The position numbers and the translations under genes were made by a program. From positions 1 through 64,000 of the forward strand of contig CALLUG010000006.1 of NCBI GenBank assembly GCA_938011315.1: DNA of 64,000 bases, written 5' to 3'. The notes under the pieces were generated by a model. The model ran no database searches and was not told the DNA's origin. It saw only the letters and a program-made list of their open reading frames with translations. This document shows, in pieces, positions 1-13,824 of the stretch (the first letter of the stretch is position 1; the number at the start of each line of letters is the position of its first letter). Origin of the DNA: an uncultured Flavobacteriaceae bacterium. GTDB taxonomy: Bacteria > Bacteroidota > Bacteroidia > Flavobacteriales > Flavobacteriaceae.

Positions 1-236
1 ATGGAGAAGTGTTAAGTATGAAAACATTTATCTAAATCCTCCCAATTCTGGAATTGATTTATACAAACAACTTAAAGCGTATTTTAACTTTTATAATCAC
101 AAAAGAAGACATCAAGGAATCGATAATCAAATACCTTTTAAAAGGTATTTGATTAAACAACAAAAAGTAGCTTAAATGAATAATAATCTGAACTTAATTT
201 AATACAAAAACTGTCTAAAAGATGGGAGAATGATCA
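1..236 (+). mobile_element. IS3-family element, right part (cut by window start)
   Basis: This is the 3' end of an insertion sequence that begins outside the window. It holds the end of the transposase OrfB followed by about 60 bp of non-coding end. The right end reads ACTGTCTAAAAGATGGGAG and then AATGATCA, ending near 236. Read on the opposite strand this matches the left end found at 1308 (TGATCATTC, then TTAGGACAGT), so the two are inverted-repeat ends of the same IS type. A degenerate copy follows at 1308-1804 in the same orientation, and a solo left end lies at 55612. The family assignment rests on the OrfB tail and the TG...CA ends. Confidence 0.8.
2..175 (+). pseudogene. IS3-family transposase OrfB, C-terminal fragment
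   Basis: The reading frame is open from the window edge and ends at the TAA at 173-175. It encodes the last 57 residues of an IS3-type transposase (rve integrase fold). The visible C-terminal signature is WRSVKYE, then YLNPPNSG, then NHKRRHQG, the usual end of OrfB in this family. The catalytic DDE residues would lie upstream, so whether the complete copy is functional cannot be judged. The copy at 1308-1804 has a near-identical tail (NHKRKHQRT instead of NHKRRHQGI). It is listed as a fragment only because the window cuts it; it may be intact outside. Confidence 0.75.
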
Positions 237-303
237 TATAAGTTTATTTCTAAACATTTTTCTCTATTTCTTTTCGTACAAAAAATAAAACATTCAATAA
301 TTC

Positions 304-1323
304 ATGAAATACTTTTTAGTACTAATTATTAATTCACTACTATTTTTTAGTTGTCAAAATCATTCTACAAACAATATTAAAACACTTAATCTGATAAAAG
401 AAATAGAACAACTAGATGGAAGATATATAAGTGATGTTAGAGGGCTAACGAATGATGAAAATTATATTTATATATCAGAGTATAACTTAAACCAAATATT
501 TAAAATTAGCAAAAATAGCCTAAAATTAGAAAGTGTTTATGGTAGATATGGTGAAGGCCCTGGAGAACTTACTGGTGCCAGTGAAATATATATTGAAAAT
601 GGAATGTTATATGTTGAAAATGACTTTAAACGTGCCATAGAAAAATATAATACAAGTAATAAAAGTCATGTTAAGACTATTAAACTACCTAACTCTTTAA
701 ATGATGCAGATTTCATGTTAAATTTCTTAGTAAAAGAAGGTAGTTGTTACATCTCTACCGTAAGTAGTAAAAGTACATCAATAAATACTTTTGATGAGAA
801 TGGTCAAATAACTCAAAAAGGTGGTGAAGTTTTTACATTCGATGATAATATGTCGCAGTTTTTAATAAGGAATGGTAGGCATTTATCGATGTTAGGTTCA
901 GACAAGATAATTGCTGTTTCTAACAATCTTCCAATAATAGAATTATATGATTTATCTTTAAACATAAAAAATGTATACGATTATACAAATGCTTCAGAAT
1001 TGATTCAAAAAAATATTGAGCATATAAACTTAAAAAGTAACACAGATGATGAGAATAGCTACAGAATTTTAGCTAAAGATATCAGTACTTATAAAAATAA
1101 ATTATACATATTATTCTCGATATACGGGGATGGATTTGGTTTTCGTCAAAACAAGTTAATCGTTTTTAATATTAAGGAGAATAATATAGTTTTTGACAAT
1201 ATATTAGCTTTGGATGAAAACTCTATATATAGCGCTATTACTGTTGATAAAAATAGCATAATTGCTTTTAATTACACGACATCATCTATTCAAATTTTCT
1301 CAAAATATGATCATTCCCCTTAA
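304..1323 (+). CDS. 6-bladed beta-propeller lipoprotein, 3' end formed by IS sequence
   Basis: The product has 339 residues with an N-terminal lipoprotein signal: hydrophobic residues 4-16 followed by FFSC, placing the lipidated cysteine at residue 17. Residues 79-89 read YGRYGEGPGEL, a hallmark of the Bacteroidota 6-bladed beta-propeller family (PF17170-like). Propeller-like strands repeat through the rest. It is probably an extracytoplasmic anchored protein of unknown ligand. The last codons (Tyr-Asp-His-Ser-Pro-stop) are encoded by TATGATCATTCCCCTTAA, in which TGATCATTC is the left end of the IS3 remnant at 1308. The original C-terminus has therefore been replaced, and a few residues or part of a blade may be missing. 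The gene is IS-bracketed cargo. Family call is good; function is unknown. Confidence 0.8.
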   Translation: MKYFLVLIINSLLFFSCQNHSTNNIKTLNLIKEIEQLDGRYISDVRGLTNDENYIYISEYNLNQIFKISKNSLKLESVYGRYGEGPGELTGASEIYIENGMLYVENDFKRAIEKYNTSNKSHVKTIKLPNSLNDADFMLNFLVKEGSCYISTVSSKSTSINTFDENGQITQKGGEVFTFDDNMSQFLIRNGRHLSMLGSDKIIAVSNNLPIIELYDLSLNIKNVYDYTNASELIQKNIEHINLKSNTDDENSYRILAKDISTYKNKLYILFSIYGDGFGFRQNKLIVFNIKENNIVFDNILALDENSIYSAITVDKNSIIAFNYTTSSIQIFSKYDHSP

Positions 1324-1804
1324 ATTAGGACAGTAAGTTAAGTTCAAAAAAAAGTATTAAATTTACTGATATCACAGGAAGAAAACCCACTTCAAAAATC
1401 AAGACAAAAGTTGTCTTAAAGGTTCTAAAGGAGCGATTAACTACAAAGGAGATAGCGCAACGTTTTAGGATTAACGTTCAACAGGTAAATCTATGCAAGC
1501 GAGAGTTTCTTAGTGAAGCAGAGATCGTTTTTTTAAGGTTAAAACTTCAAAGAAAAGCAAAACTGAATTTAAAGAAAAACGCCTATGGAGAAATGTTGCA
1601 TATGAAAGCGTTTATCTAAACCCTCCCAATTCTGGAATTGATTTATACAAACAACTTAAAGCGTATTTTAGCTTTTATAATCACAAAAGAAAACACCAAA
1701 GAACTGATAACCAAATACCTTTTGAAAGGTATTTGATTAAACAACAAAAAGTAGCTTAAGTGAATAGTAATCTGAACTTAAGTTAATACAAAAACTGTCT
1801 AAAA
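1308..1804 (+). mobile_element. Internally deleted IS3-family element
   Basis: The left end starts with TGATCATTCCCCTTAAATTA at 1308 and GGACAGT follows. About 1370-1580 encodes the OrfA helix-turn-helix part (KVVLKVLKERLTTKEIAQRF, then EIVFLRLKLQRK). From about 1581 the frame changes directly to the OrfB C-terminus (RLWRNVAYE, YLNPPNSG, NHKRKHQ), which stops at 1757-1759. The N-terminal and catalytic parts of OrfB are missing, so this is a non-autonomous relic with an internal deletion of roughly 0.7 kb or more. The right end is recognisable only to ACTGTCTAAAA (about 1804). The terminal GAATGATCA of the copy at 1-236 is absent. Confidence 0.8.
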
Positions 1805-1847
1805 CATTAGTTGAAAACTTTCCGAATTATTAAAATAACATCTAAAC

Positions 1848-1879
1848 ATTGATTTTTATGTTACAATGTGTTACATTTG
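1848..1879 (+). promoter_or_regulatory. Bacteroidota-type promoter for the Fic gene
   Basis: ATTG at 1848-1851 is followed after exactly 20 nt by TACATTTG at 1872-1879. This matches the Bacteroidota vegetative consensus (TTG/TTTG at -33, TAnnTTTG at -7). Transcription would begin near 1886, about 18 nt before the ATG at 1904. The promoter lies just after the IS3 remnant, so the Fic gene has its own promoter and does not depend on the IS. Confidence 0.6.
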
Positions 1880-1903
1880 ATACTGTAATTAACACGTTGT
1901 GAC

Positions 1904-3208
1904 ATGAAAATAGAAAATCCACCAGAAATAAAGGATTTTGATTTCAACAAATATATTGAATGCTTTAAAAAGGATGGAATGGAATCTTTTATTCAAGATA
2001 CTGATAAAAGATATTTTTATTGGACTGAAATAAAGCATCGTCCAAACTTACCATTTGATAATCCCAAAAAAGCTTGGGAAATTGTTAAAACTCACAGATT
2101 TATTGGAGCAAAAAGACTTCTTTTTGGAAATCATAAGTTCTCTTACAACCTAACTTCATTTATACAAGAAGATTTACACAATTTTGATTTAAAATTAATA
2201 GGCGGACTTTATAAAAATTCTATTACGCCTCAAGAACAACAGGAATATTTTAAAAATTCTCTAATTGAAGAAGCTATTGCCTCATCACAAATTGAGGGAG
2301 CTGCAACGACAACCGCTGTCGCAAGAGAAATGATTAAATCAGGCAGAAAACCAAGAACGGAATCTGAACAGATGATAATCAATAATTTCAGAGCTATTAG
2401 AGAAATTGAAAACAGATTAGATGAAGAATTATCAATTGAATTAATTTTTGATATTCATCAAATAATGACCGTAAAAACTGACGCAGCTAAATATGCGGGG
2501 AAATTCAGAGACCATCCAGTTTATGTCAAAGACCATGTAGATGGAGAAATTGCTTTTACAGCACCAGACTTTTCAGAGGTTAATGAATTAATAGAACAAC
2601 TACTACATTTTATTAATTCGGAAACCGAGTTTTATCATCCAATTATTAAAGCTTCTATTCTTCATTTTATGATTGGTTATATCCACCCATTTGGTGATGG
2701 AAATGGTCGTACTGCAAGAGCTTTATTTTATTGGTATTTAATTAAGAAAGGATATTCTTTATTAAAACATATTTCAATATCTAAAGCAATATTAAATTCA
2801 AGAACAAGCTATGATAAGGCCTTTTTAAAGACAGAACACGATCAAAATGATTTAACTTATTTCATAATGTATTCAATGAAAAATTTAAGAGTCGCTTTTC
2901 AAAGTTTAGTTTCATATAGGGATAGAAAACGAGAGGAGAGACAAAAAGCTTCTGAAATACTATATGAGCTCACACAAAAAGGATTTAATAAAAGACAAGC
3001 AGATTTATTAGGCTATTTATTTATCAAACCAAGAGCTAAAGTAACGGTCCCAATATATTCTAAAAGACATGAAATTGTTAGACAAACCGCAAGCAGAGAT
3101 TTAACTGATTTAGAAGAAAAAGGAATTGTTTTTAAAAGTAAAGATGGTAAAACAATGGTCTATGAGTTAATTGCTATCGAAAAAATTGGAAGCTATTTAA
3201 ATAAATAA
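1904..3208 (+). CDS. Fic family protein (predicted AMP transferase)
   Basis: The product has 434 residues. The Fic active-site loop HPFGDGNGRTAR is complete at residues 261-272 (catalytic His261). An inhibitory helix motif of the form [S/T]xxxE[G/N] is present upstream (Ser127 to Glu131-Gly132), which makes this a class II, self-inhibited Fic protein. Residues 1-95 form the N-terminal extension usual in this group. Residues about 350-425 look like a winged helix (KRQADLLGYLFIK, then RQTASRDLTDLEEKG). Fic enzymes transfer AMP or other nucleotide groups to hydroxyl side chains; the target here is unknown. It stands alone on the plus strand, between an IS relic and a cassette-like repeat. Such proteins are common in accessory islands. 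Confidence 0.92.
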   Translation: MKIENPPEIKDFDFNKYIECFKKDGMESFIQDTDKRYFYWTEIKHRPNLPFDNPKKAWEIVKTHRFIGAKRLLFGNHKFSYNLTSFIQEDLHNFDLKLIGGLYKNSITPQEQQEYFKNSLIEEAIASSQIEGAATTTAVAREMIKSGRKPRTESEQMIINNFRAIREIENRLDEELSIELIFDIHQIMTVKTDAAKYAGKFRDHPVYVKDHVDGEIAFTAPDFSEVNELIEQLLHFINSETEFYHPIIKASILHFMIGYIHPFGDGNGRTARALFYWYLIKKGYSLLKHISISKAILNSRTSYDKAFLKTEHDQNDLTYFIMYSMKNLRVAFQSLVSYRDRKREERQKASEILYELTQKGFNKRQADLLGYLFIKPRAKVTVPIYSKRHEIVRQTASRDLTDLEEKGIVFKSKDGKTMVYELIAIEKIGSYLNK

Positions 3209-3215
3209 CATTTTA

Positions 3216-3354
3216 CAACAATGGCTATAAGTAATTGCGTTGGCAAGGCATACTTTTTTGCAATTTTTGGCTTATGCCTTGGCTGAAGCGAATTGCAAAT
3301 ATATATGGCGAAAAATTAATCGATGTTTACTTGGTTTTTACCTCAGTTCTTTGT
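3216..3354. repeat. Cassette-like palindromic repeat, copy 1
   Basis: The element begins with CAACAATGG and GGCTATAAGTAATTGCG and contains GGCAAGGCATA (from about 3242), whose inverted partner TATGCCTTGGC lies about 20 nt further on (10 of 11 positions pair). Outer segments TATAAGTAATTG and CAATTG/AATATA also pair imperfectly, giving one long hairpin. The stretch 3237-3354 recurs at 4188-4307 with few changes, ending in both copies with CTTGGTTTT and CAGTTCTTTGT. The broken toxin gene on the minus strand stops 14 bp beyond it. Any small reading frames across it are products of the repeat. Confidence 0.75.
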
Positions 3355-3367
3355 CGGCAACTGGCTT

Positions 3368-3685
3368 TTATTTTTTTCGTTCTATTTTTATTGGGTTTTG
3401 TCGAGTATCAAAAACATCATTTATTTCAACTCTATTCTTATCGTTATTAATCCAATAAATGACTTTATAGTTTTTATATACAAGATATCTAAACCCTTGA
3501 TTTCTATTTTTAAGAAGTTCTTCGGCTTGTCCAATTTCGGCTTGCCTTTGTAATTTTAAAGTTTCGTTATAAATACCATTAACAAGTTTTTTTGTTATTC
3601 GAATTCCAGCTTTTTCTCGATGATATTTATAAATTTTTTCTAGTTCTTTTTGAAAGAAATCAGGTCAAAATAATTTTAATTCCAT
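3368..3685 (-). pseudogene. RelE/ParE-type toxin, inactivated by an in-frame TGA
   Basis: The minus-strand frame of 106 codons starts with the ATG at 3683-3685, which overlaps the end of the antitoxin gene by 10 nt, and stops at 3368-3370. Codon 7 (3665-3667) is TGA. Family members usually have Trp there (pattern VFWTDFA), so one TGG-to-TGA change explains it. The rest is intact and typical: PDFFQKELEKIYKYHREKAG, EIGQAEELLK, FRYLVYKNYKVIYWI and VFDTRQNP. No usable start lies soon after the stop. The gene should therefore be silent unless the TGA is read through or the base is a sequencing error. The family is a ribosome-dependent RNase or gyrase-type toxin fold. Confidence 0.8.
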
Positions 3686-3918
3686 TTATCAATCTTGGCT
3701 TTTAATTCGCTAGATTCAATTAGTCGACCATTTATTGAATCTTCCATAGATTTGTCAATTCGAGAATTAAATTCCTCAATTGTCATTGGTTTAAAATCAT
3801 CATTTTCGAAATTCTTATTTTCTTTTCTAAGGATTTTTTCAAGTCGTGAAATAACATCTTCACTTTGAATCTTTAAAAACTCTTGAATTAGTTCCAATTT
3901 TCTTGTTTGTAAATCCAT
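3676..3918 (-). CDS. Antitoxin of a RelE/ParE-type module
   Basis: An 80-residue acidic, Lys/Glu-rich helical protein beginning MDLQTRKLELIQEFLKIQ. It follows the layout of short Bacteroidota addiction-module antitoxins: a helical N-terminus with EVI/DVI-like and KLELI motifs, then TIEEFNSRIDKSMEDSINGR and a C-terminal toxin-binding tail. Its last 10 nt overlap the start of the toxin frame, the normal antitoxin-then-toxin coupling. The toxin carries a nonsense codon, so this antitoxin is likely an orphan that could still neutralise related toxins elsewhere. There is no recognisable HTH; DNA binding is not supported by sequence alone. Confidence 0.75.
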   Translation of the reverse strand: MDLQTRKLELIQEFLKIQSEDVISRLEKILRKENKNFENDDFKPMTIEEFNSRIDKSMEDSINGRLIESSELKAKIDKWN

Positions 3919-4319
3919 TTTATTAGCTTTTTATCAAAGATACAAAATTATCAATTTAAACATCTAATTTCCTTGTTTTCACGAATTTCTCAGCTTGTTG
4001 TCAACGTGTTTGTATAAGATTAGTTGCGTGTTTAAGCACTAAAGTTAGCAAATAAATCACAGATAGAAAGTCCGCGAGAACTTTCGTAAGTAGGCTATAA
4101 CGAGCATTAATTATATACGTCTTTGTTGTAAGTAGTGCTTCATGTCCTGCTTGGTTTTACGATGTTTGTTATTTAGTTCGAAACTGAGCGTTGGCAAGGT
4201 GCATACTTTTTTGCAATTTTTGATTTATGTGTTGGCTGAAGAGAATTGCAAATATGCATGGCGAAAAATTAATTGATCTTTACTTGGTTTTCACCTCAGT
4301 TCTTTGTTTTGTGGCGTTT
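3919..4319. other. Non-coding interval made mostly of cassette-like repeats
   Basis: No credible gene was found. About 3990-4090 begins with GTCAACGTGTTTGTATAAG, an end-like sequence of the same type as the other palindromic repeats, followed by a GAAAGTCCGCGAGAACTTTC hairpin-like stretch at about 4067-4086. From 4092 to 4307 it is repeat sequence (listed separately). The promoter of the antitoxin gene should lie near 3919-3990 on the minus strand but no clear consensus was recognised. Confidence 0.6.
4092..4307. repeat. Cassette-like repeat, copy 2 (two joined units)
   Basis: 4092-4237 (AGGCTATAACGAGC to GTGTTGGCT) is nearly identical to 7575-7719. 4188-4307 is nearly identical to 3237-3354, including CTTGGTTTTCACCTCAG and TTCTTTGT at the end. 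The element ends 12 bp before the stop codon of the minus-strand DUF262/HNH gene at 4320. It therefore occupies the whole space between that gene's 3' end and the 5' side of the antitoxin gene. Confidence 0.8.
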
Positions 4320-5693
4320 TTATATCAGAATTTTTCCGTTTGATTTTTCTCGATTACACGATTTATGCAATATTGCGAGATTTATTTCTTCGTTATTTCC
4401 AAAATCGTCTATTGATTGTAAATGGTCAATTTCATAATCATCAGTGCTTCGGATTTGATTTTTACAATATGGGCAAAGTCCGTTTTGTTTTTCTAATAAT
4501 TTATCTTCTAGTGTTTTATCTCTAATAGTAGAAATTCTTTTAGACCTTTCAATGTTATATTTTTTTCGGATAGAGTCTAATGTGCTTGATTTTATAAAAT
4601 CTACTCTGTCTGAAAAAGTGTTATTGATTCTATGTTTACCTCTTTTAGAGTTTTGTATAAAAGCTCGATTAGTTTCATCAGAGAAAAACTTTTCAAAGCT
4701 ATCGTGAATCTCATCTCTATATTTTTGCAAAAATTTATCATCCTCATTTGAAAAGAGTAATGTAATTATGTCCAATAATGTTAAGTTAGGATATACTTTT
4801 TTACGATTTGGATTTTCATTTACTAATTGCCCAAGAGCATTATTTGTTCCGAAAATTAGTTTAATTCTTTTTAGAGTATTTAGAAAATGTTTTTCAAGAC
4901 TATTTAAATTTGTTGAATCAGTTTTATTTTCAAAATGGTATTTTACATTTTGAAGCATTAATGTTTTTGGTAAATGATTTTTATTTTTTAGCTCTTGATA
5001 ATTACTAATTAATGTCATAAAACGTAAAACATCATTCTCATTATCCATTCTTAAATCATCAGTTTTTACAGATTTTCTAGATATTGAGTGATTAAATAAT
5101 TCTGTCTTTACAATTCTTTTAATTAGGCGAGTAAAATCACTTAAATAAATACAATTCCACAATTCAAAACTATTAGCCTTGATGGGGAAAGGATTCTTGT
5201 TCAAACGCTCAAATATTTCATATTTAAGTGATTGCTCAAACCCTTTGTCTTCATCAAAAGTGAATGTTTTCAGAGTGAAATCTAAAATTTTGTCATTAAG
5301 TACAATTTTAAAATAATCGTGATTATAATCTAGTCCGTTAAGATTTGTTAAAATATCTAAACCTATCAAATTGAAACCGTTTAATTTGGTTTTTACACCT
5401 CTTAAATGACCGAGAAAGCCAAAAAAAGATATTAGCCTCTGTTGACCATCAATTACTTCAAGCTTACCTTCTTTATCTTTAAATAAATATATAGGTGGTA
5501 ATGGAATTCCTAGGACAGCACTTTCAATTATACCACTGGCTTTTTGTCTATTAATCACTTCATTACGCTGATAGTTAGGTCTGAGATTAATATTGTCGTC
5601 AAGATAATAACGAAGCAAAGTTTTTATGCTTGTGTCAGATGATGAGCCTTGTTTTAGTTGAAGTAAAGATTTATCTATTGTATTGTTATCCAT
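4320..5693 (-). CDS. DUF262 protein with C-terminal HNH nuclease domain
   Basis: The product has 457 residues. The N-terminal DUF262 (ParB/Srx-like) domain shows YQR at 41-43 and the signature DGQQR at 82-86. The C-terminus (about 395-457) is a zinc-finger HNH domain: CPYC, then EIDHL, then HKSCNREK. Related DUF262 enzymes (GmrS-like, SspE, BrxU) use NTP hydrolysis together with an HNH or DUF1524 nuclease to attack modified or foreign DNA. The ATG overlaps the stop of the upstream DUF262 gene in a TAATG, so the two are co-translated and probably form one complex. Repeats flank the pair. A defence role is inferred from family and context; the trigger is unknown. Confidence 0.88.
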   Translation of the reverse strand: MDNNTIDKSLLQLKQGSSSDTSIKTLLRYYLDDNINLRPNYQRNEVINRQKASGIIESAVLGIPLPPIYLFKDKEGKLEVIDGQQRLISFFGFLGHLRGVKTKLNGFNLIGLDILTNLNGLDYNHDYFKIVLNDKILDFTLKTFTFDEDKGFEQSLKYEIFERLNKNPFPIKANSFELWNCIYLSDFTRLIKRIVKTELFNHSISRKSVKTDDLRMDNENDVLRFMTLISNYQELKNKNHLPKTLMLQNVKYHFENKTDSTNLNSLEKHFLNTLKRIKLIFGTNNALGQLVNENPNRKKVYPNLTLLDIITLLFSNEDDKFLQKYRDEIHDSFEKFFSDETNRAFIQNSKRGKHRINNTFSDRVDFIKSSTLDSIRKKYNIERSKRISTIRDKTLEDKLLEKQNGLCPYCKNQIRSTDDYEIDHLQSIDDFGNNEEINLAILHKSCNREKSNGKILI

Positions 5694-6958
5694 TACGCAA
5701 TTTTATTTGTAAAATAGTTATCTATAATTTTACCCATTTCTGAAAACCTGTATCGAACCCTAGCAGAATTGAAAACTTTTTCTTTGTAAGTGTCAATTAA
5801 ATTGAAGTCTTTATTTTCTTCATATTCTGAGTTTTCAACATTTTTTAGGTACTCGTTGATATATTTGCCTAAATCATATCCGTTATTATCTATAAATGAA
5901 TTATTAAGCCTATTATCAGTTGCAAAATGATAATATAAAGTTTCGATAAAATATCTTTCTTGTCTCTGGCGACTAAAGAAATTACCGTAGGTAGAATATA
6001 TTTTATTGAAATTATTTTTAATTTCTTTTTCAATTTTACTCAATTGCTCTGTTTTGAGTTGCTTTACATCGATTTCAGAATCCTCTTCCTCTTCTTCCGA
6101 TAATTCAGAAACATCAAGTTCATTCTCTTCGTTTTTATCAAAATTGTAAATACTAGATTCTATTCTGTCAAATGATGAATTGATGAATGGATTTTTACTT
6201 TTCTTAGCATAGAGTTCAATTGAATCGTCAAATAGGGCAAGTAAGAAAAGTAAGGTCACATACTCGTCTCCTGCCATTCTTTCGTCTTCTTCAAAAAATG
6301 GACAGACTTTATTAAAGATATCTGACTTCGCAATTTTTTTAAAGAGCTTATGAAAGTCGTTTTGTGAATATTGACAGTTTCTTACTTCTTGCTGATTTAA
6401 AGCAGTTAACCCTGAATTATATCTATGAAATAATTGATATTTAAATTTTAGTTGAGTATCGATATCAATATTTCTATCAACCAATTTAAAAGTTACAGTT
6501 CTAATGGAATATGTTTTGAAGGCTCTTTGAAATTTTTCATCTAATTGTTTATATGTTCTACCATTCAAAGACTCATATAAAGGTGTATCTTTTTTAAGGC
6601 CTTCTAACTTTAATTCGTTATTGCGAAATTTGAGAATAGTACTTAATCTTTGCCTACCGTCAATAGCCTCCTTAACAATTTTCTTTAGGTCTTGAACTTC
6701 TTTTTCAACTTCCACAAAATATATTATCGGTGTATCAATACCATATATAATACTTTCTATAAAATATGATTGTTTATTAATTGACCAAACGAATTTTCGT
6801 TGATATTCAGGTTCATGGTCAATTTTTCCGCTTGTCTGATTTTCCCATAAGTCAATTATTGGTATATCTTGCGGCGCTGGTTGAAATACTCTTTGGAATT
6901 GATATATCTCGTCCTCAAAGATACTTTTTCTTAAATTCTCTTCTACTTTATCACTCAT
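5693..6958 (-). CDS. DUF262 protein, first gene of a coupled pair
   Basis: The product has 421 residues with a DUF262 domain: EYQRKFVW at 51-58 and DGRQRLS at 100-106, the latter a variant of the DGQQR signature. Middle helices follow. Residues about 277-298 are a very acidic linker (EENELDVSELSEEEEED), and a helical C-terminal domain ends the protein. No HNH or DUF1524 motif is visible, so the nuclease is probably provided by the next gene, with which it shares one base (stop/start TAATG at 5691-5695). The pair likely evolved by duplication, with one member losing or never having the nuclease. Function is inferred as the NTP-hydrolysing or sensing partner. Confidence 0.85.
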   Translation of the reverse strand: MSDKVEENLRKSIFEDEIYQFQRVFQPAPQDIPIIDLWENQTSGKIDHEPEYQRKFVWSINKQSYFIESIIYGIDTPIIYFVEVEKEVQDLKKIVKEAIDGRQRLSTILKFRNNELKLEGLKKDTPLYESLNGRTYKQLDEKFQRAFKTYSIRTVTFKLVDRNIDIDTQLKFKYQLFHRYNSGLTALNQQEVRNCQYSQNDFHKLFKKIAKSDIFNKVCPFFEEDERMAGDEYVTLLFLLALFDDSIELYAKKSKNPFINSSFDRIESSIYNFDKNEENELDVSELSEEEEEDSEIDVKQLKTEQLSKIEKEIKNNFNKIYSTYGNFFSRQRQERYFIETLYYHFATDNRLNNSFIDNNGYDLGKYINEYLKNVENSEYEENKDFNLIDTYKEKVFNSARVRYRFSEMGKIIDNYFTNKIA

Positions 6959-6984
6959 AGTTCAATTTTTTTTTAAATGACATA

Positions 6985-7112
6985 CAACGATCTCGGCTAT
7001 AAGTAATTGCGTTTGTGAGGCATACTTTTGCAAGGACACGACAAGCTGAAAATTCTACAAGAATTTTCAGGATAAGCCTTTAAAAAGCAATTGTTTATAA
7101 TCATTGTTATGG
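6985..7112. repeat. Cassette-like palindromic repeat, copy 3 (long imperfect hairpin)
   Basis: The whole element can fold on itself. The left side TATAAGTAATTGCGTTT (from about 6999) pairs with AAAAAGCAATTGTTTATA (about 7083-7100), AGGC pairs with GCCT, and the centre is a perfect 11-bp stem: CTGAAAATTCT at 7046-7056, a 3-nt loop, and AGAATTTTCAG at 7060-7070. Ends are CAACG (6985) and GTTATGG (7106-7112). It shares GGCTATAAGTAATTGCG and AGGCATACTTTT with copy 1. It lies between the 5' end of the DUF262 pair and the 3' end of the antitoxin gene. Confidence 0.7.
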
Positions 7113-7131
7113 TGTCGTTTTTTCTATTCGA

Positions 7132-7431
7132 TTACAAAAAAGTCAGTCCAATTTTTCGGTTAAGTCCTTGCTCGAAAATCCTAATTAAGGTCGAAAGTTG
7201 GATATTTCCTTTTCCATTCTCAATTTTAGAGATATAACTCTTTTTTGTACCAGTTTTTTCGGCAAGCTGCTCCTGTGTCATTTGTGCCTCTTTTCGTGCG
7301 GATTTCAGCATTTCGCTTACGATGAACATTTGTGCTCCTTCGTCATAATTGTTTCGGCTTTCCGTTCCAATTTTCCCGTGTTCAAGCTCAATGAGTTCCT
7401 CGAAGTTCGTTATGTTTTTATATTTTTTCAT
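7132..7431 (-). CDS. HigA-type HTH antitoxin
   Basis: The product has 99 residues with an XRE/HTH_3 domain at about 36-95 (SARKEAQMTQEQLAEKTGTKKSYISKIENGKG). The N-terminal 35 residues (MKKYKNITNFEELIELEHGKIG, then RNNYDEGAQ) match the HigA-like antitoxins of Bacteroidota, which sit downstream of a HigB toxin. Only the tail of that toxin remains just upstream (7437-7574, 5 nt away). The antitoxin normally represses its own operon. Its original promoter was lost with the start of the toxin gene, so its expression now depends on the adjoining repeat or is absent. Confidence 0.88.
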   Translation of the reverse strand: MKKYKNITNFEELIELEHGKIGTESRNNYDEGAQMFIVSEMLKSARKEAQMTQEQLAEKTGTKKSYISKIENGKGNIQLSTLIRIFEQGLNRKIGLTFL

Positions 7432-7436
7432 TGTCT

Positions 7437-7574
7437 TTATTTTTTCTTGTCAAGATATTCGTTCATTAATCGTTCCGCTTTATCGATTTCCTTTTCCGGT
7501 GTTTTTTGCGTCTTTTTTTGAAAACCGTTAAAAAGTACCACAAGTTGTCCTTCATCGAAACAGCAGAAGTAACT
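7437..7574 (-). pseudogene. HigB-type toxin, C-terminal remnant
   Basis: The minus strand encodes 46 residues ending at 7437-7439: [18 protein letters not shown], then [19 protein letters not shown]. This is the C-terminal half of a HigB/RelE-like mRNA interferase of the kind that precedes HigA. The homology stops exactly where the repeat beginning AGGCTATAACGAGC starts (7575), so the N-terminal half and start codon have been removed by a rearrangement at the repeat boundary. It cannot make an active toxin. Confidence 0.78.
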
Positions 7575-7719
7575 AGGCTATAACGAGCCATTAACTATAC
7601 ACGTCTTTGTTGTAAGTAGTGCTTCACGTTCTGCTTGGTTTTACGATGTTTGTTATTTAGTTCGAAACTGAGCGTTGGCAAGGCATACTTTTTTGCAATT
7701 TTTGGTTTATGTGTTGGCT
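7575..7719. repeat. Cassette-like repeat, copy 4
   Basis: This is 145 bp nearly identical to 4092-4237, from AGGCTATAACGAGC to GTGTTGGCT. Its last base touches the stop codon of the restriction-modification gene (TTA on the plus strand at 7720), and its first base is where the HigB remnant is cut off. GGCAAGGCATA and TATGTGTTGGC inside it form an imperfect hairpin arm. The exact fit between two genes suggests insertion or excision at defined ends. Confidence 0.8.
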
Positions 7720-10700
7720 TTATTCAATTTCTATTTTATCTATTTCTTTCATTATTCTATCTGTTTCGGTTAGGGCAACTATAATTTTTTGATAATGTAA
7801 AATATCTTCAAATTTTAATTCTCTTTCCTTTCTGTCTTTCAGCCATTTTTGTGCTGGTTGGTAACCACCAATATAAAATTCCCAAGCGGTTACAGGAACA
7901 TTGTCAAAATATTTGCTCTCATTTATCCATATTCTACCAAGTTGCTTTTCTTTGTCGATTATTTGCCAATCTTTCTTTCCAATCTTTGTGGTAATAACAT
8001 TATGGTCGTTTTCTGCATCTTCTGCCATTTCATAACTGGTAATATAATCTTCAACTTTGTTGCTTTCTAACAAATGAATTTCGCGTACTTCTTTCCCTAA
8101 TTTAACTAAATTCCAAAACGTTTTTTCGTCTTTTGGATAAGGCACTCTTGGAAAATCTATTTTTAAAAACTCTTTGTATTTTTCTCTGTATGTTGGCGAG
8201 TGTAAAACTGCATAGATGTAATCTAAAATATCTATTGGTGCAAAAGTATCTTTGGTTTCTTCTTTTTCTTTGGTGAAAGTTAAATCTAGCTTTTTAGCTA
8301 TTTCTTTTACTATTTCTTGATTTAGATTGGGTATTCTTTCTGCTGTTTCCTCTATTGTTTGTTGACCTTTAAGGTCTTTGTATGTATAGAGAGGAAATAC
8401 TACATTCTGTTCTTTGGTTTTATTTGATATAACACACATTTCTGCAATATTATTATCAATTAAAATATGATGAAACTCATCTTCTGCTAATTGACGCGGT
8501 ATTAATAAACACAAATTTTCTTGACTAATTAAATGTGACATAACACTACTTCTAGTCCAATCAACCATACTGTCAGAATAAAATAAAAATCGTTTATCAA
8601 AAGGTCTATAACTCAATTCTTGTATTTGTGTGTCTAAATCTATTTTAAGTAATTCCTTTCTAGCATTTTCAATTTTCCAGCCTCTAGTATCTCCCTGCTT
8701 ATATTTTCCTGCTTTTTTATGTGAGAAAAACATTTGTCGAATTTCATCATCTGTTTTACTTATATCTACAAAACTTTTAATTCTATTTAGAAGCTTTTCT
8801 TTATCAAAATCGATAACAAATTTGTCTCTAGAGGTTTGAATTCCAGTGCTATTTAGAGGGAATAATTTATGTATATTAAAACCTTGATTGTAAGTTTTAC
8901 TATTAGAGTTATCTTTCGGAACAAAGAAAATATTTGGTTTGATAGGATTAATTTCTTCAAAACTGATATTTGAAAGACTATTTTTTAACAAGAAATCATA
9001 TTTGAATTTTCTGCGACCGTATAAGTCATAATGAAATACTTTTCCTAATTCCTTTTCTTTTTTCTTGTCTGTTTTTAAGAATATAGTAATAGCAACACCT
9101 TGCATAATGTCAAAAACATTTTGGTCCGGTGAGCCGTCAGGAGATACTTCATTTCGTTTTGTATTTCCGTGTAAGTCTATCGTGTAGATTTTGTCATAAG
9201 TTTTCAATAAATTCCATCGCATACCTCTAAAGGTTGGATTATCTAAAAACCCGTGAGGATTAATAAACGCTAAAATACCGCTGCCGTTTTTTTCGATATA
9301 ATGTTGACTATAACGTATAAACTTTACATAATCATCATTTAACCAGTGTTTACGTTCATTAAAATGAACTCCATCAACATATTTATAATCTTCAATTAAA
9401 TCACTTATCCATTGTCCATTATTTGAAGATATTCCACTATAAGGCGGATTCCCAATAACACACATTACAGGTGTATTACGTTTTATATGGTTGGCTTCAT
9501 TAGCTTCACTACTTAACCAATTGGAAAATAAGGTTCCTGTGTCTTTATGGTGTTCTTCTAATGAGTTGGTTAAGTAAATATTTAAACGTTCGTTTTTAGT
9601 GGATTTATAACCAGTTTCGGTTAGTAGCATATCTAACTTCAAATGTGCCATAGCGTAGGAAGCCATTAACAACTCAAAACCGTTTAGTCTTGGTATTAAG
9701 TGTTCTTCTACGTAGCCACTCCAAGCACCTTTCATTGCCTTAAAATTTTTGTTGTAAATAAACTTTACAACTTCTGCTAAAAATGTTCCTGTTCCTGTTG
9801 CTGGGTCAAGTATTTGTACTTTGTGGACTTCTTTTTCTACTTGTTTGTAGCCAGTTGCAGAACGTTTATCAGGCGTTTGTGTGTCTAATTTTATTTTGGT
9901 TTTACTTGTATCTGCAAGGCCTTGTGGTAAATTAAATTCGGTTTTTAAAATATCGTCAACTGCACGAACTATAAAGTTTACAACCGGTTCGGGGGTGTAC
10001 CATACACCTCTTGCTTTGCGTAATTTTGGATCGTATTCTGCCAAAAAAGTTTCGTAAAAATGAATTATAGGGTCGTGCATTTGAGTTGCCTTTCCAAAAT
10101 TCTTTAAAAGTTGTTCAACGTTTGTTGCTCTAAAAACTTCTGCAAGGTTGTCTACTACAGTTACAATACGTTCGTCAATATCTGGTCCAGCAATGTAGCC
10201 AAAAAGTTTACGTAAAAAAGGATTTGATTTTGGTATGAGTTCTGCTGCTTCTTGTCGGCTAAAATCGTCTAAAGTAGGGTCGTGTAAACGAGCTGCGAAC
10301 ATTCCGTAAGCCAAAGTTTGTGCATAAATATCTGCAAAACCTTTAGGCTCTAAATCGTGAATTAATATCTGTTTAAAAGTATCATATTGCCCTTTTAAGG
10401 ACGTGTTTTCTTGTGTTTCTTCGTCGGATGTAATGGCGCGTTCTAAAATGTCTTGTAACAAACGAGCTTTTCCTGCCATCATTTCCGCCAATTTTTTTGA
10501 CGATTTGATGGTTTGACCAATTTGAGTAGAAAAGTCTTTTATTAAATTCTCAAATTTTGAAAAGTTTTCGGGAATTGGCTTCACTGAATTGTTTTCAATT
10601 TCTCCAATTTTGATTTCGTGTACTAATTCTCCGTTTTGAAAGAATTGAAACCAGATGTAATCTGTAATAATTAGATTGTCGAGTGCTTTTTTGTAACGCC

Positions 10701-10959
10701 CAAATTGTTCTTTGTAAGATTTACTGTTTAGGTCTTTACCTATATCTTTTGCTTCAATATAACCAACAGGTATTTTTCCTTTTGTGATTACGTAATCTGG
10801 ATTTCCACAATCAGTTACGTTTGCAGGTTCGTTGGTTATTTCAATTCCTTTTACTAATTTTCTAATTAGTGTTTCTAAATCGCCTCTATATGAATGTTCT
10901 CTTGATAGTCCAGATTGAAGTCTCTTACTTACTATTTCTACGTATTCTTTTATTGTCAT
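7720..10959 (-). CDS. Single-chain restriction-modification enzyme (type IIG / ISP-like)
   Basis: The product has 1079 residues. The N-terminus carries a PD-(D/E)xK nuclease core: NPDYVI at 53-58 and YIEAK at 67-71. A helical connector follows (about 130-330), then an N6-adenine methyltransferase with the SAM-binding motif DPATGTGTF from Asp385 and the catalytic NPPY at 504-507. The C-terminal part (about 600-1079) should hold the target-recognition domain. No Walker A or DEAD/DEAH motif is visible, so it lacks the helicase of true type ISP enzymes such as LlaGI and resembles type IIG/IIL: one protein cuts and methylates one strand. The recognition sequence cannot be predicted. The gene looks intact and is flanked at its stop by a cassette-like repeat. 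Confidence 0.9.
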   Translation of the reverse strand: MTIKEYVEIVSKRLQSGLSREHSYRGDLETLIRKLVKGIEITNEPANVTDCGNPDYVITKGKIPVGYIEAKDIGKDLNSKSYKEQFGRYKKALDNLIITDYIWFQFFQNGELVHEIKIGEIENNSVKPIPENFSKFENLIKDFSTQIGQTIKSSKKLAEMMAGKARLLQDILERAITSDEETQENTSLKGQYDTFKQILIHDLEPKGFADIYAQTLAYGMFAARLHDPTLDDFSRQEAAELIPKSNPFLRKLFGYIAGPDIDERIVTVVDNLAEVFRATNVEQLLKNFGKATQMHDPIIHFYETFLAEYDPKLRKARGVWYTPEPVVNFIVRAVDDILKTEFNLPQGLADTSKTKIKLDTQTPDKRSATGYKQVEKEVHKVQILDPATGTGTFLAEVVKFIYNKNFKAMKGAWSGYVEEHLIPRLNGFELLMASYAMAHLKLDMLLTETGYKSTKNERLNIYLTNSLEEHHKDTGTLFSNWLSSEANEANHIKRNTPVMCVIGNPPYSGISSNNGQWISDLIEDYKYVDGVHFNERKHWLNDDYVKFIRYSQHYIEKNGSGILAFINPHGFLDNPTFRGMRWNLLKTYDKIYTIDLHGNTKRNEVSPDGSPDQNVFDIMQGVAITIFLKTDKKKEKELGKVFHYDLYGRRKFKYDFLLKNSLSNISFEEINPIKPNIFFVPKDNSNSKTYNQGFNIHKLFPLNSTGIQTSRDKFVIDFDKEKLLNRIKSFVDISKTDDEIRQMFFSHKKAGKYKQGDTRGWKIENARKELLKIDLDTQIQELSYRPFDKRFLFYSDSMVDWTRSSVMSHLISQENLCLLIPRQLAEDEFHHILIDNNIAEMCVISNKTKEQNVVFPLYTYKDLKGQQTIEETAERIPNLNQEIVKEIAKKLDLTFTKEKEETKDTFAPIDILDYIYAVLHSPTYREKYKEFLKIDFPRVPYPKDEKTFWNLVKLGKEVREIHLLESNKVEDYITSYEMAEDAENDHNVITTKIGKKDWQIIDKEKQLGRIWINESKYFDNVPVTAWEFYIGGYQPAQKWLKDRKERELKFEDILHYQKIIVALTETDRIMKEIDKIEIE

Positions 10960-11309
10960 TTTCTGTTTTCAATCTTTGGTCAGCATTGGATAAAAATAGC
11001 TCTTTTGTTTTTTATAGCGTTAGCTTTTGCGAGGAAAAAAACAAATGTTCAATTTCTGCACCATTTTCGCATTACTTACAACAAAGTGTAAATTCACCGT
11101 TAAATGTATTTCTACACGAAAAATCTACTATATTTCTCTATTTCAGTTTTTATTTGCTTTTTGCTAAGTTTTTGCGCCAAACCATACGCAACAACCTTGT
11201 ATTGAAAAATAAAACGCAAAGAATCCATTAAAAACATAAGATGCTATTGGGCCAAATATCTTTTGTTTTTAATAAACAGCAGATTCAAAAATAATTTAAT
11301 TTTATAGCC
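10960..11309. other. Intergenic stretch at the right edge of the island
   Basis: This 350-bp AT-rich interval separates the restriction-modification gene from the core genes. Around 11019-11035 it contains AGCGTTAGCTTTTGCG, which read on the other strand (CGCAAAAGCTAACGCT) resembles the ends of the cassette-like repeats, so this may be the outer boundary of the array. The minus-strand promoter of the enzyme gene should be here, but only a weak -7-like TATTTTTA was seen. No gene recognised. Confidence 0.45.
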
Positions 11310-12428
11310 CTACAAATCTTTTATAAAAGTACAGCGTTTTTTGTGTATTACTGGCTTAAAGTTTTTCCAAAGCTTATGTATTGCGTGGTTATCGTCCAAT
11401 TCGGGACCTCTAACACAGTATTGTATGCCTTTTTCTGTAAATGTTTTATGAAATTCTTCAAAGATAATAGCCGAAACCCCTTTGTTTTGATATTTTGGTA
11501 AGATGCCTATTAAGTAAAATGTAACCGATTTTGAATGTTTTTTAGCATGTAATAAATGGCTAATTCCAGTAGGAAACAGCTTGCCTTTCATTTTTTGTAA
11601 AGCTTCTGCGTAGGATGGAGTTACAATACCAAAAGCGATAAGTTGCCCATCTTTGTCTATCACAAACTTTACGTAATCGGGATTAATAAATCCAATAAAT
11701 TTTTTTGTAAAGTAGCTGCGCTCTTCGTCATTAATTTTTACAAAAGTAGATAGCGTGGCGTGCGATTTAGCAAAAACATCAAACATTTCATTAATATAAG
11801 GTTTAAGCTCTTTTTTAGTTTTAAAATTTAAAGCTTTAAGTTGGTAGCGTTCTTTTATTAATTGTTGTGTTCGTTGAAAGTACTCTGGTTTGATGTTTTT
11901 AAATTCCATTATGTTTTCAGAATACGTTTTTCCAACACGATGGCCCAATGTTTTAAAATGAGTAACATAGTAGGGGTAGTTGTACCAAGTAATCATACTT
12001 CCTATTTGCTCATACCCTTCGGTTAGTACGCCCACTTTGTTTAGGTTAGAAAAGCCTACAGGGCCTTCTGTGTATTCCAATTGATTTGCTTTACCAATAG
12101 CATAAACTTCGTTTAGTAAAGCTTTTGTGACTTCAATATTGTCTATAACATCAAACCAACCAAAACGCATTTTTTTTATATTCTGCTCTTTTACTTCTGT
12201 CCAGTTAATAATAGCAGCAACCCTACCAACAATTTTGTTGTCTTTATACGCTAGAAAAAGGGAGATTTCTGCATTTTTAAAGACAGGATTTATTTTGGAA
12301 TTAAATGTGGCTAACTCTTCTTTTATAATAGGAGGGACCCAATATTTTGATTTTTCATATAGTGAAAAAGGAAATTTTACGAATTTTTTTAATTCTTTTT
12401 TTGAGTGTACCGCTTTTACTGTAATCAT
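11310..12428 (-). CDS. GNAT-fold N-acetyltransferase-like protein
   Basis: A 372-residue cytoplasmic protein with the features of a double acyl-CoA N-acyltransferase (GNAT) fold. Residues about 55-75 (ISLFLAYKDNKIVGRVAAIIN) resemble the first beta hairpin of GNAT enzymes. Residues about 295-330 (SVTFYLIGILPKYQNKGVSAIIFEEFHK) resemble motif A, which binds acetyl-CoA (Q/RxxGxG/A variant: YQNKGVSA). Members of this family are widespread and conserved in Bacteroidota, but the substrate is not known. It is the first core gene after the island and lies 24 bp downstream of the outer-membrane protein gene on the same strand, so the two may be co-transcribed. Confidence 0.75.
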   Translation of the reverse strand: MITVKAVHSKKELKKFVKFPFSLYEKSKYWVPPIIKEELATFNSKINPVFKNAEISLFLAYKDNKIVGRVAAIINWTEVKEQNIKKMRFGWFDVIDNIEVTKALLNEVYAIGKANQLEYTEGPVGFSNLNKVGVLTEGYEQIGSMITWYNYPYYVTHFKTLGHRVGKTYSENIMEFKNIKPEYFQRTQQLIKERYQLKALNFKTKKELKPYINEMFDVFAKSHATLSTFVKINDEERSYFTKKFIGFINPDYVKFVIDKDGQLIAFGIVTPSYAEALQKMKGKLFPTGISHLLHAKKHSKSVTFYLIGILPKYQNKGVSAIIFEEFHKTFTEKGIQYCVRGPELDDNHAIHKLWKNFKPVIHKKRCTFIKDL

Positions 12429-12452
12429 ATATGCTTGTTACAACTTGTAATA

Positions 12453-13376
12453 TTACAAATTGGTTTGTTCTTCTAACTCTTCAAAGTCTTTTCGTATTTT
12501 TTTATCCTTATGAAAATCTAAACGGTAAGAGGCGCCTAGAGTGATATTAAAAACAGATGGTGTGTTTTTGTTATTAAATGCAACTGCGGTGTCTAGCTGA
12601 AAATTTGGACTAAAAAGATATGCGCCTCCAAACCTAAATAAATTGTCAGAATTAAAATCACCACTAATACCTTGTGTTTCACCAAAAACAACTAACTTTC
12701 GATTAAAGGCATGTGTTAATGTTAAAATGTATTGAAAATCAGAACTGTCAGTCCCTATCCTGTCTAGCATAAAGTTGGTTACAAATACCCAACCTCCTTT
12801 AAAGTTATTTTGTGTAATAACGGCCACCCTAGGACTAAAGCCCTCGGTGTCTGGGGCAATAAATGGATTGTCTTGAGTGTCAAAATTAGCACCAGCAAAT
12901 ACAGCTACTGCTGGGATTAGTTTTTTCCAATTAAAACGCTGGTTGGCTTTCCAGCTGTATAAGTTGGGTTTATCCTCTTCGGCATCTTTATAGGGGTCGT
13001 AAATTAAGTATTTAGCTCCTAAGGTTACATTTCTAAAATCAGTACGGCTGGTCTCTGGGGCATTTGCTAAACTATTGTCTGTAAATGTATCACTCTGGTA
13101 GCCAACATTTAGGTTAAGCTCTAATGCCTCGAACAATAAACCGTAGCGCAATACAAAATCTGCTCCAAAACCTTCTGTTTCAAAATTTAAAAGATCATGT
13201 TCTTCATTGATAGAAAATACACCAGTTTCAAACTGAAAGACATTAACGCCAACAGCAAATGCACTTTGAGAAACCCCAGGACGGTTAGAGTTAATAACAT
13301 CAGTGTACTGCCCATAAGTAGCTATAGTGTTTAGAATATAAATAACAAACGCAATTTGAACAAAATAAAGCCTCAT
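12453..13376 (-). CDS. Outer-membrane transporter-like beta-barrel protein
   Basis: The product has 307 residues. An N-terminal signal sequence (about 1-22, ending ATYGQ) is followed by alternating hydrophobic strands ending in aromatic residues, as in outer-membrane barrels. TDVINSNRPGVSQSAFAVG and VNVFQFETGVF near the N-terminus are typical of the PF13557 family (named after the meta-pathway phenol degradation proteins and usually annotated as transporter). The substrate is unknown. It is divergent from the DUF4834 gene. A TATATTTG -7 element lies upstream on the minus strand at 13406-13413. Confidence 0.75.
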   Translation of the reverse strand: MRLYFVQIAFVIYILNTIATYGQYTDVINSNRPGVSQSAFAVGVNVFQFETGVFSINEEHDLLNFETEGFGADFVLRYGLLFEALELNLNVGYQSDTFTDNSLANAPETSRTDFRNVTLGAKYLIYDPYKDAEEDKPNLYSWKANQRFNWKKLIPAVAVFAGANFDTQDNPFIAPDTEGFSPRVAVITQNNFKGGWVFVTNFMLDRIGTDSSDFQYILTLTHAFNRKLVVFGETQGISGDFNSDNLFRFGGAYLFSPNFQLDTAVAFNNKNTPSVFNITLGASYRLDFHKDKKIRKDFEELEEQTNL

Positions 13377-13405
13377 TAGCTATTAGGTTTAATTATATGA
13401 AGTCC

Positions 13406-13413
13406 CAAATATA
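13406..13413 (-). promoter_or_regulatory. Candidate -7 element for the barrel protein gene
   Basis: On the minus strand the sequence reads TATATTTG, an exact match to the Bacteroidota TAnnTTTG -7 element. It would start transcription near 13399, about 23 nt before the ATG at 13376. No good TTG was found about 20 nt upstream, so the call is tentative. Confidence 0.35.
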
Positions 13414-13487
13414 TAATTTTATTATTTTTTTATGTTTGTAAACGAGTTTTAAATATGAAGAATTGTATTTTTGAATAAATTTTAGCT

Positions 13488-13769
13488 ATGCTCCAAGAAG
13501 CGTCATTACATGGTTTAATTAGGGTATTACTCCTATTAGTGTTGGTTTACTACGGTGTAAAGGTGTTGTCAAGACTATTTGCGCCAGCAATATTGCGTTA
13601 TGTTACAAAAAAAACAGGGCAACATTTTGAAAAACAATTTAACTCTAAGCGTAAATACTCGCGCTCTTCCAAAAAAGAAGGTGATATTACTATAGATAAA
13701 ATGCCTAACACAAACAATCACTCCAATAAGGATGTAGGGGAATATGTTGATTATGAAGAGATTGATTGA
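13488..13769 (+). CDS. DUF4834 family small membrane protein
   Basis: A 93-residue protein. Residues about 8-36 form one hydrophobic membrane segment (LIRVLLLLVLVYYGVKVLSRLF). A basic cytoplasmic stretch with KKTGQHFEKQF and KRKYSRSSKKEG follows, and the tail ends in the acidic VGEYVDYEEID. This layout is the DUF4834 family of Bacteroidota, of unknown function. It sits 55 bp before the YfhO-type gene on the same strand, a common arrangement in Flavobacteriaceae, and is probably co-transcribed with it. A TATTTTTG at 13466-13473 could be its -7 element, but the possible -33 partner is too far upstream. Confidence 0.8.
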   Translation: MLQEASLHGLIRVLLLLVLVYYGVKVLSRLFAPAILRYVTKKTGQHFEKQFNSKRKYSRSSKKEGDITIDKMPNTNNHSNKDVGEYVDYEEID

Positions 13770-13824
13770 CGGGATTTAAATACAAATAAGCCTAATTTAT
13801 TTTTACTGATTTACTTTTAATGTT

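Follow-up and report, generated by a model that had tools for sequence, protein, structure and literature searches.

Overlapping DUF262 and DUF262-HNH genes in an uncultured Flavobacteriaceae bacterium as a candidate two-gene form of a usually fused, paired-DUF262 protein

The stretch of DNA analyzed here (the window) comprises 64,000 nucleotides from an uncultured Flavobacteriaceae bacterium (assembly GCA_938011315.1, contig CALLUG010000006.1, positions 1 to 64,000). It carries two adjacent minus-strand genes, called A and B below, whose products both contain a DUF262 domain (PF03235, now GmrSD_N; Pfam cut-off 33.2 bits). Gene A (5693-6958) encodes a protein of 421 amino acids in which the DUF262 domain (63 bits; residues 36-197, positions 6368-6853) is the sole Pfam match. 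Gene B (4320-5693) encodes 457 amino acids with a DUF262 domain (39.2 bits; residues 33-183, positions 5145-5597) and, in this partner only, an HNH nuclease domain (PF01844, 33.4 bits against a cut-off of 21.4; residues 407-452, positions 4338-4475). The stop codon of A and the start codon of B share one base within TAATG (plus-strand coordinates 5691-5695). An earlier note, made from the letters alone, had pointed to two DUF262 proteins with this overlap, with the motifs given below and with HNH only in the second; its coordinates are exact, and Pfam agrees.

Both proteins have a YQR motif, which is accompanied by DGRQR in A (residues 100-104, positions 6647-6661) and by DGQQR in B (residues 82-86, positions 5436-5450). 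The QR, DGQQR, and FxxxN motifs of GmrSD, BrxU, and SspE are exact in B, whereas A has R for the first Q. In a 26-row alignment (A5), the DGQQR motif of B and its HNH residues D423, H424, N438, and N447 are invariant. When compared with a relative in a Lutibacter metagenome-assembled genome (locus L017), B is 85% identical at the amino acid level, with a ratio of nonsynonymous to synonymous substitution rates (dN/dS) of about 0.04 that indicates strong purifying selection. For A, synonymous sites are saturated in this comparison and the proportion of nonsynonymous differences (pN) is 0.08. Given these values, the pair is not a product of chance. The acidic linker that had been noted in the first protein (approximately residues 277-298, positions 6065-6130) is present, and its letters vary while its acidity is kept in L017 and in a second locus, L018. 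No further PF03235 gene was found in the whole assembly at an expect value (E) of ≤ 0.001.

Relatives were collected with an alignment of the C-terminal part of B, which was used to scan the 84,980 species genomes of genome_contigs. Of the 127 relatives obtained, the 80 best were retained (loci L017 to L096; the duplicate loci L004/L043, L013/L029, L014/L026, and L015/L090, which have equal scores, are counted once within the 80). Both DUF262 copies lie in one open reading frame (ORF), in the same order, in 71 of the 80 loci, including L020 and L038, whose first copy lies partly outside the main frame. The A part occupies a separate or broken frame in five loci (L017, L018, L019, L042, and L092), and four others start no more than 200 bases from a contig end, where A is not checkable (L021, L023, L044, and L057). 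Overall, the first copy is present in 76 of 76 checkable loci, albeit partly broken in L019, L020, L038, L042, and L092. The one-gene DUF262-DUF262-HNH proteins (e.g., L011, L024, and L029) thus have the same copies, order, and HNH domain as the window, but the window and its close split relatives L017, L018 (Marinifilum fragile), and L019 (Mariniflexile fucanivorans, with A broken) use two genes. The genes overlap by one base in L017 as in the window and are separated by one base in L018 and L019.

Because the genes around the pair differ among these four split loci, the pair itself is the constant unit. The earlier note had proposed a coupled two-component unit, an idea that would lose ground if the two parts did not co-occur across genomes. 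In the relatives both copies go together, and the fused forms, this co-occurrence, and the trees described below all indicate that the halves belong together. The pair is not a stand-alone oddity: it represents, in two genes, a protein that most relatives encode in one. In the open-licence PubMed Central (PMC) literature, the wording “two,” “double,” or “tandem DUF262” is absent from the four papers listed in a search for it, and the papers searched gave no name for the one-gene DUF262-DUF262-HNH proteins. As a separate observation, a protein in L017 with AAA_15 and OLD-like TOPRIM parts (675-2486; similar to the AriA and Old models of PADLOC) lies upstream of A, with its end 167 bases away.

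At the phylum level, window B was found in 7 of 395 genomes, its own included; the six others have ORFs of 711-1108 amino acids, and five of these (L011, L013, L014, L015, and L016) contain the first DUF262 copy in the same ORF. At the order level, where the family is rare, a profile of the fused proteins matched 4 of 395 genomes and window B matched 7 of 296, again counting the window’s own; four of the six others in the latter search are single DUF262 proteins. Window A matched 28 of 395 genomes including its own, and these comprise five other genomes with fused doubles and a remainder with proteins of the L012 type (described below) or single DUF262 proteins of the NsnA type (NsnABC being the Menshen system). 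Within the genus (two genomes), B occurs in the window’s genome only. A single-protein search of viral contigs gave no relative, and an alignment search gave two HNH-less doubles (L097 and L098). Among phages, the window B query returned nine records, none covering 80% of B. Among plasmids, 94 records matched B and 123 matched A, all at <60% identity and with query coverage below 80%; the fused L011 query gave one plasmid record at E ≤ 1e-20, from Priestia, with 64% of the query matched.

The difference between the motifs of A and B recurs in the fused proteins. In 79 motif-scored fused proteins, a set that counts four loci twice, the first copy has DGRQR in 74 cases, as in A, and DGKQR in 3, with no motif recognized in 2 (L020 and L087), while the second copy has DGQQR in 79 of 79. 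The same position varies in eight single proteins (L in four; Q, S, R, and N in one each). A 32-row alignment of fused proteins shows no variation, in either copy, at the five motif residues or at the F and N of FxxxN. Judged by these motifs, both copies look functional yet different.

Profile scores were ambiguous regarding the placement of A and B, and therefore trees were built; only the trees separate the two from the single NsnA-type proteins. In a 63-row tree, the A proteins of the split loci are sister to 22 sampled fused first copies (support 98/93), and the B proteins are sister to the 22 fused second copies (100/98), which identifies A as a first-copy type and B as a second-copy type. 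The same sister groupings were recovered in a 45-row tree with ten fused proteins and additional rows resembling the TgvAB system discussed below (99/95 for A and 100/99 for B). Topologies that place all split genes in one clade (approximately unbiased test, p-AU 0.0009) or all fused copies in one clade (p-AU 0.00125) were rejected, the former result being a rejection of an independent duplication. From these trees and rejected topologies, the A/B duplication appears to have taken place before two-gene and one-gene forms diverged. The window would then represent the sister two-gene state of an old paired-DUF262 protein, and it may either predate the fusion or result from a later fission on the stem.

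The earlier note could name no system that matches the pair, and this held for PADLOC, which has only single-protein models (e.g., NsnA) and none for the pair. However, two-gene DUF262/DUF262-nuclease systems have been published, and so the plan is not unprecedented. According to the parts of the 2024 report on TgvAB consulted here (PMC11411939), this system from Vibrio cholerae VPI-2 consists of two adjacent DUF262 genes, the second with a DUF1524 nuclease; both proteins are required for protection, both have DGQQR, and a motif mutation in either abolishes protection. Similarly, the consulted parts of the 2025 report on GrwAB from V. cholerae VSP-II WASA (PMC12137116) describe two DUF262 proteins, one with a nuclease, that are both required and in which a motif mutation of either partner abolishes protection. 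There, the DUF1524 nuclease belongs to GrwA, which is encoded first, and GrwB has further domains of unknown function.

The pair could be a TgvAB or GrwAB system, that is, a two-gene modification-dependent restriction enzyme of the GmrSD type, given that the plan of an adjacent DUF262 partner and DUF262-nuclease partner is the same. As in TgvAB, the genes are adjacent, both encode DUF262, and only the second has a His-Me/HNH-type nuclease; as in GrwAB, one of the two DUF262 proteins has a nuclease. Unlike TgvAB, B has PF01844 rather than DUF1524 (PF07510), for which the assembly gave no match at E ≤ 1e-8, and A has DGRQR instead of DGQQR. GrwAB is set apart by its description, since the pair lacks DUF1524, has its nuclease in the second gene, and has only DUF262 in A. 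We examined the stretches around 31 of 32 DUF1524 matches in Bacteroidota genomes and found three TgvAB-like pairs (L175, L177, and L180), in which a DUF262 + DUF7834 protein of 472-475 amino acids overlaps a DUF262 + DUF1524 protein. In the 45-row tree these fall outside the branch (100/99) that holds A, B, and the NsnA-type proteins, a comparison that rests on pairs labeled by architecture and not on VC1767/VC1766 themselves. A profile of DUF1524-linked DUF262 domains listed neither A nor B at E 10, although it does list L018 B and L019 B with low scores of 17-18 bits. On these grounds we regard membership in TgvAB or GrwAB as highly improbable. Because the TgvAB-like pairs sit on another DUF262 branch, the plan of two DUF262 domains and a nuclease probably arose twice.

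Searching defense-system models, a check that the earlier note had proposed, gave NsnA as the best PADLOC model for each half (148 bits for A and 165 bits for B), with PD-T4-2_A second. These matches would suit a variant of Menshen (NsnABC) or PD-T4-2, whose DUF262 proteins represent the nearest sequence branch. Yet in those systems a single DUF262 protein is accompanied by ATPase/NsnC or HEPN partners. We found no such partner next to the pair, and the scan of six window proteins gave no NsnB, NsnC, or HEPN match. Furthermore, the NsnA model is unspecific: it scores 207 bits with the DUF262 protein of L099, which has a HEPN gene as its neighbor. By comparison, in the complete NsnABC locus L101 the genes adjoining NsnA match NsnB (286 bits) and NsnC (269 bits). 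We therefore consider a Menshen or PD-T4-2 variant improbable. The consulted part of one report gives PD-T4-2 a HEPN partner gene (PMC10952713). Annotated DUF262 + HEPN pairs occur in L099, L100, and L102, and the HEPN gene of L099 matches no PADLOC model. Septu was also set aside, given that the matches of PtuB models are confined to the C-terminal HNH part of B and that the six proteins scanned include no PtuA match.

The relatives differ in the gene or domain that accompanies the paired DUF262 copies. An HNH domain lies in the core ORF of 36 of the 80 loci, and the DH...N signature was seen on inspection in 36 of 36; in the 32-row alignment A4, which has 22 HNH-class members, PF01844 was found in 21 rows. 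(Outside the 80, L005 has HNH by profile coverage but no Pfam HNH match.) Another 26 of the 80 are HNH-less doubles with a neighboring gene from one BLAST cluster that overlaps or ends ≤ 12 bases upstream, three of these neighbors being short fragments (L032, L051, and L096). This cluster has 27 members, the 27th from the viral contig L098, and all 10 that were scanned are putAbiC (PF16872). A PIN_8 gene lies directly downstream in two loci (L072 and L082) and in L016 outside the 80, and an upstream protein of approximately 460-507 amino acids occurs in two more (L089 and L091, neither protein with a Pfam match) and in the viral contig L097. Fourteen of the 80 have neither HNH nor any of the putAbiC-cluster, PIN_8, or ~500-amino-acid neighbors. 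Among these, L060 and L081 adjoin Schlafen AlbA_2 genes, L084 has a long C-terminal extension, L059 has HNH in the next frame and was counted as non-HNH, and the others are cut or unexplained. The genes within 60 bases of the HNH forms make up no separate cluster, save the A genes of the split loci.

This distribution is the expected look of a shared sensor with exchangeable effectors, as judged from comparative evidence. A different reading is that B is a DNA-damaging abortive-infection effector that is held by A and freed on infection. The overlap of the genes with A first would fit such restraint, and the putAbiC, PIN, and AlbA_2 genes beside relatives suit an abortive style, but the single chain in 71 of the 80 relatives is a better fit to a permanent complex than to a labile antidote. 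We consider this reading unlikely. Two further features of the relatives were observed. At L034, a putAbiC membrane protein and an HNH-less double-DUF262 protein form a conserved unit (3237-4499 and 4504-6843) that recurs in 25 others of the 80 loci, and no joint mention of putAbiC and DUF262 was found in the searched open-licence PMC literature. In L014 and L049, the double-DUF262-HNH protein carries DUF4379 treble-clef zinc fingers at its N-terminus, which may serve as an additional DNA reader.

Structure models were examined for the fused relative L011 (predicted local distance difference test [pLDDT] 86.5, predicted template modeling score [pTM] 0.74) and for window B. In the VIA comparison, the first copy of L011 resembles SspE (Z 7.3, root-mean-square deviation [rmsd] 3.2 over 134 residues), its second copy with linker resembles BrxU (Z 7.4, rmsd 11.7, 284 residues), and its end resembles the Gme HNH nickase (Z 7.7, rmsd 3.1, 70 residues). 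Window B likewise matches BrxU, at the top of its list (Z 7.8, rmsd 13.5, 273 residues), SspE (Z 6.8, rmsd 4.2, 142 residues), and Cas9-type HNH domains. For both DUF262 copies, the predicted fold is of the ParB/sulfiredoxin type; the models also predict a helical linker and place HNH last. The pair thus resembles BrxU, GmrSD, and SspE in having DUF262, a helical linker, and a His-Me nuclease, with BrxU and SspE among the top VIA matches, but those proteins have one DUF262 domain per chain, DUF1524, and no asymmetric pair.

The reading that we favor, with a probability of roughly 60%, is that A and B make up a single nucleic-acid defense enzyme, each as one subunit, and represent an old paired-DUF262 protein in its two-gene version. 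An A-B heterodimer would take the place of the DUF262 homodimer of BrxU, and the asymmetric pair would bind a nucleoside triphosphate (NTP). B would probably be the canonical NTPase, and A, with R for Q in the pocket, a regulatory or sensing partner. Contact with foreign, perhaps modified, DNA would then change the shape of the complex and release HNH to nick or cut. In relatives, the paired sensor appears to drive other effectors, namely the putAbiC membrane protein, PIN, and Schlafen AlbA_2. The pairing, the motif asymmetry, and the intact active sites are read directly from the sequences; NTPase activity, DNA sensing, and phage protection are inferred, with invading phage or plasmid DNA as the probable target. 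Dependence on DNA modification is a more tentative suggestion, which we hold to be somewhat doubtful. Evenly balanced, in our judgment, is the broader proposal that the window carries a two-gene, possibly pre-fusion, sister of an undescribed sensor class, which would have an obligate asymmetric DGRQR + DGQQR pair and interchangeable effectors (HNH, putAbiC, PIN ribonuclease, and AlbA_2) and would be independent of TgvAB and GrwAB.

Several observations weigh against the reading of A and B as subunits of one enzyme derived from an old pair. The profile scores are not decisive: A scores 140-142 bits with the fused first copies and 151-153 bits with the profile of eight single NsnA-type proteins, and B scores 168-176 bits (fused) versus 162-169 bits (single), with the eight single proteins all coming from window B searches and therefore biased toward B. 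Both trees gave long-branch warnings, mainly for DUF1524-linked rows, and the clades used in the topology tests were chosen with the first tree already in view. The 80 loci were selected through two peptide patterns in B, and one phylum relative, L012 (G460), has a single NsnA-type DUF262 domain with HNH and no first copy. Effector swaps occur in the relatives, not in the window. Finally, the model of window B is of lower quality (pLDDT 74.0, pTM 0.68) and the structural matches are modest; with all VIA Z scores <8 and no Foldseek match at E ≤ 0.001, they are consistent with the GmrSD plan rather than proof of it.

A and B bear on a point raised in a 2025 review, the consulted part of which states that the need for both partners in two-protein GmrSD-like systems warrants further investigation (PMC12409362). 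In the proteins described here, that plan recurs in what appears to be an independent second lineage. Its two DUF262 copies are usually fused, with a difference at one motif position in nearly all cases, which suggests that the asymmetric DUF262 pair is the working unit. Natural one-gene and two-gene versions, together with effector swaps, offer material for testing this idea. Current PADLOC models label each half “NsnA” and overlook the system.

The earlier note had described the neighbors as toxin-antitoxin and restriction genes. A type IIG restriction gene is indeed present (7720-10959; 1251.7 bits to the PADLOC model), but on the toxin-antitoxin side there are only orphan antitoxin-like ORFs below cut-off, a Y4mF/HipB-like helix-turn-helix (HTH) protein (7132-7431) and a weak RelB-like ORF (3676-3918; E 0.009). 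Among the short ORFs beside these, no partner toxin was recognized by eye, and no library search of them was made. The restriction gene nearby, the repeats that flank the segment, and a weak match of B to the PADLOC type II restriction endonuclease model (45 bits) would suit an orphan type II restriction enzyme or a selfish HNH gene without a defense role. That match, however, is limited to residues 31-123 of B, in the DUF262 part. Relatives also drop HNH yet keep paired DUF262 beside other effectors, and the surroundings differ in the three other split loci. We judge this the least probable of the alternatives.

The repeats themselves are imperfect intergenic direct repeats (3237-3354, 4105-4319, and 7589-7719, as well as 3202-3257 and 6974-7029). 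Two 95-nucleotide copies that are 96% identical (4105-4199 and 7589-7683) bound the segment that contains the pair together with the HTH gene, and the query 4105-4319 is found at eight places in the assembly, itself counted. These repeats are possible boundaries of a cassette or mobile element. An identity as integron attC sites gained no support: the best piece among the integrase-like proteins of the assembly scored 110 against the 265-bit integron-integrase cut-off, and the folding of the repeat at 4095-4320 is not unusual (z -1.33). In addition, Rfam gave no match within positions 1-16000, and promoter- or terminator-like sites showed no clear excess over shuffles. At 6960-7125, folding of the DNA surpasses that of every one of 200 shuffled versions (z -2.96). 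The gene at 1904-3208, which encodes a Fic protein with a SoFic-like C-terminus (175 bits to the PADLOC SoFic model), is a possible second defense gene. Lastly, a 223-nucleotide direct repeat (91%; 1-223 and 1585-1807) with an inner 32-nucleotide inverted-repeat match flanks an ORF at 304-1323.

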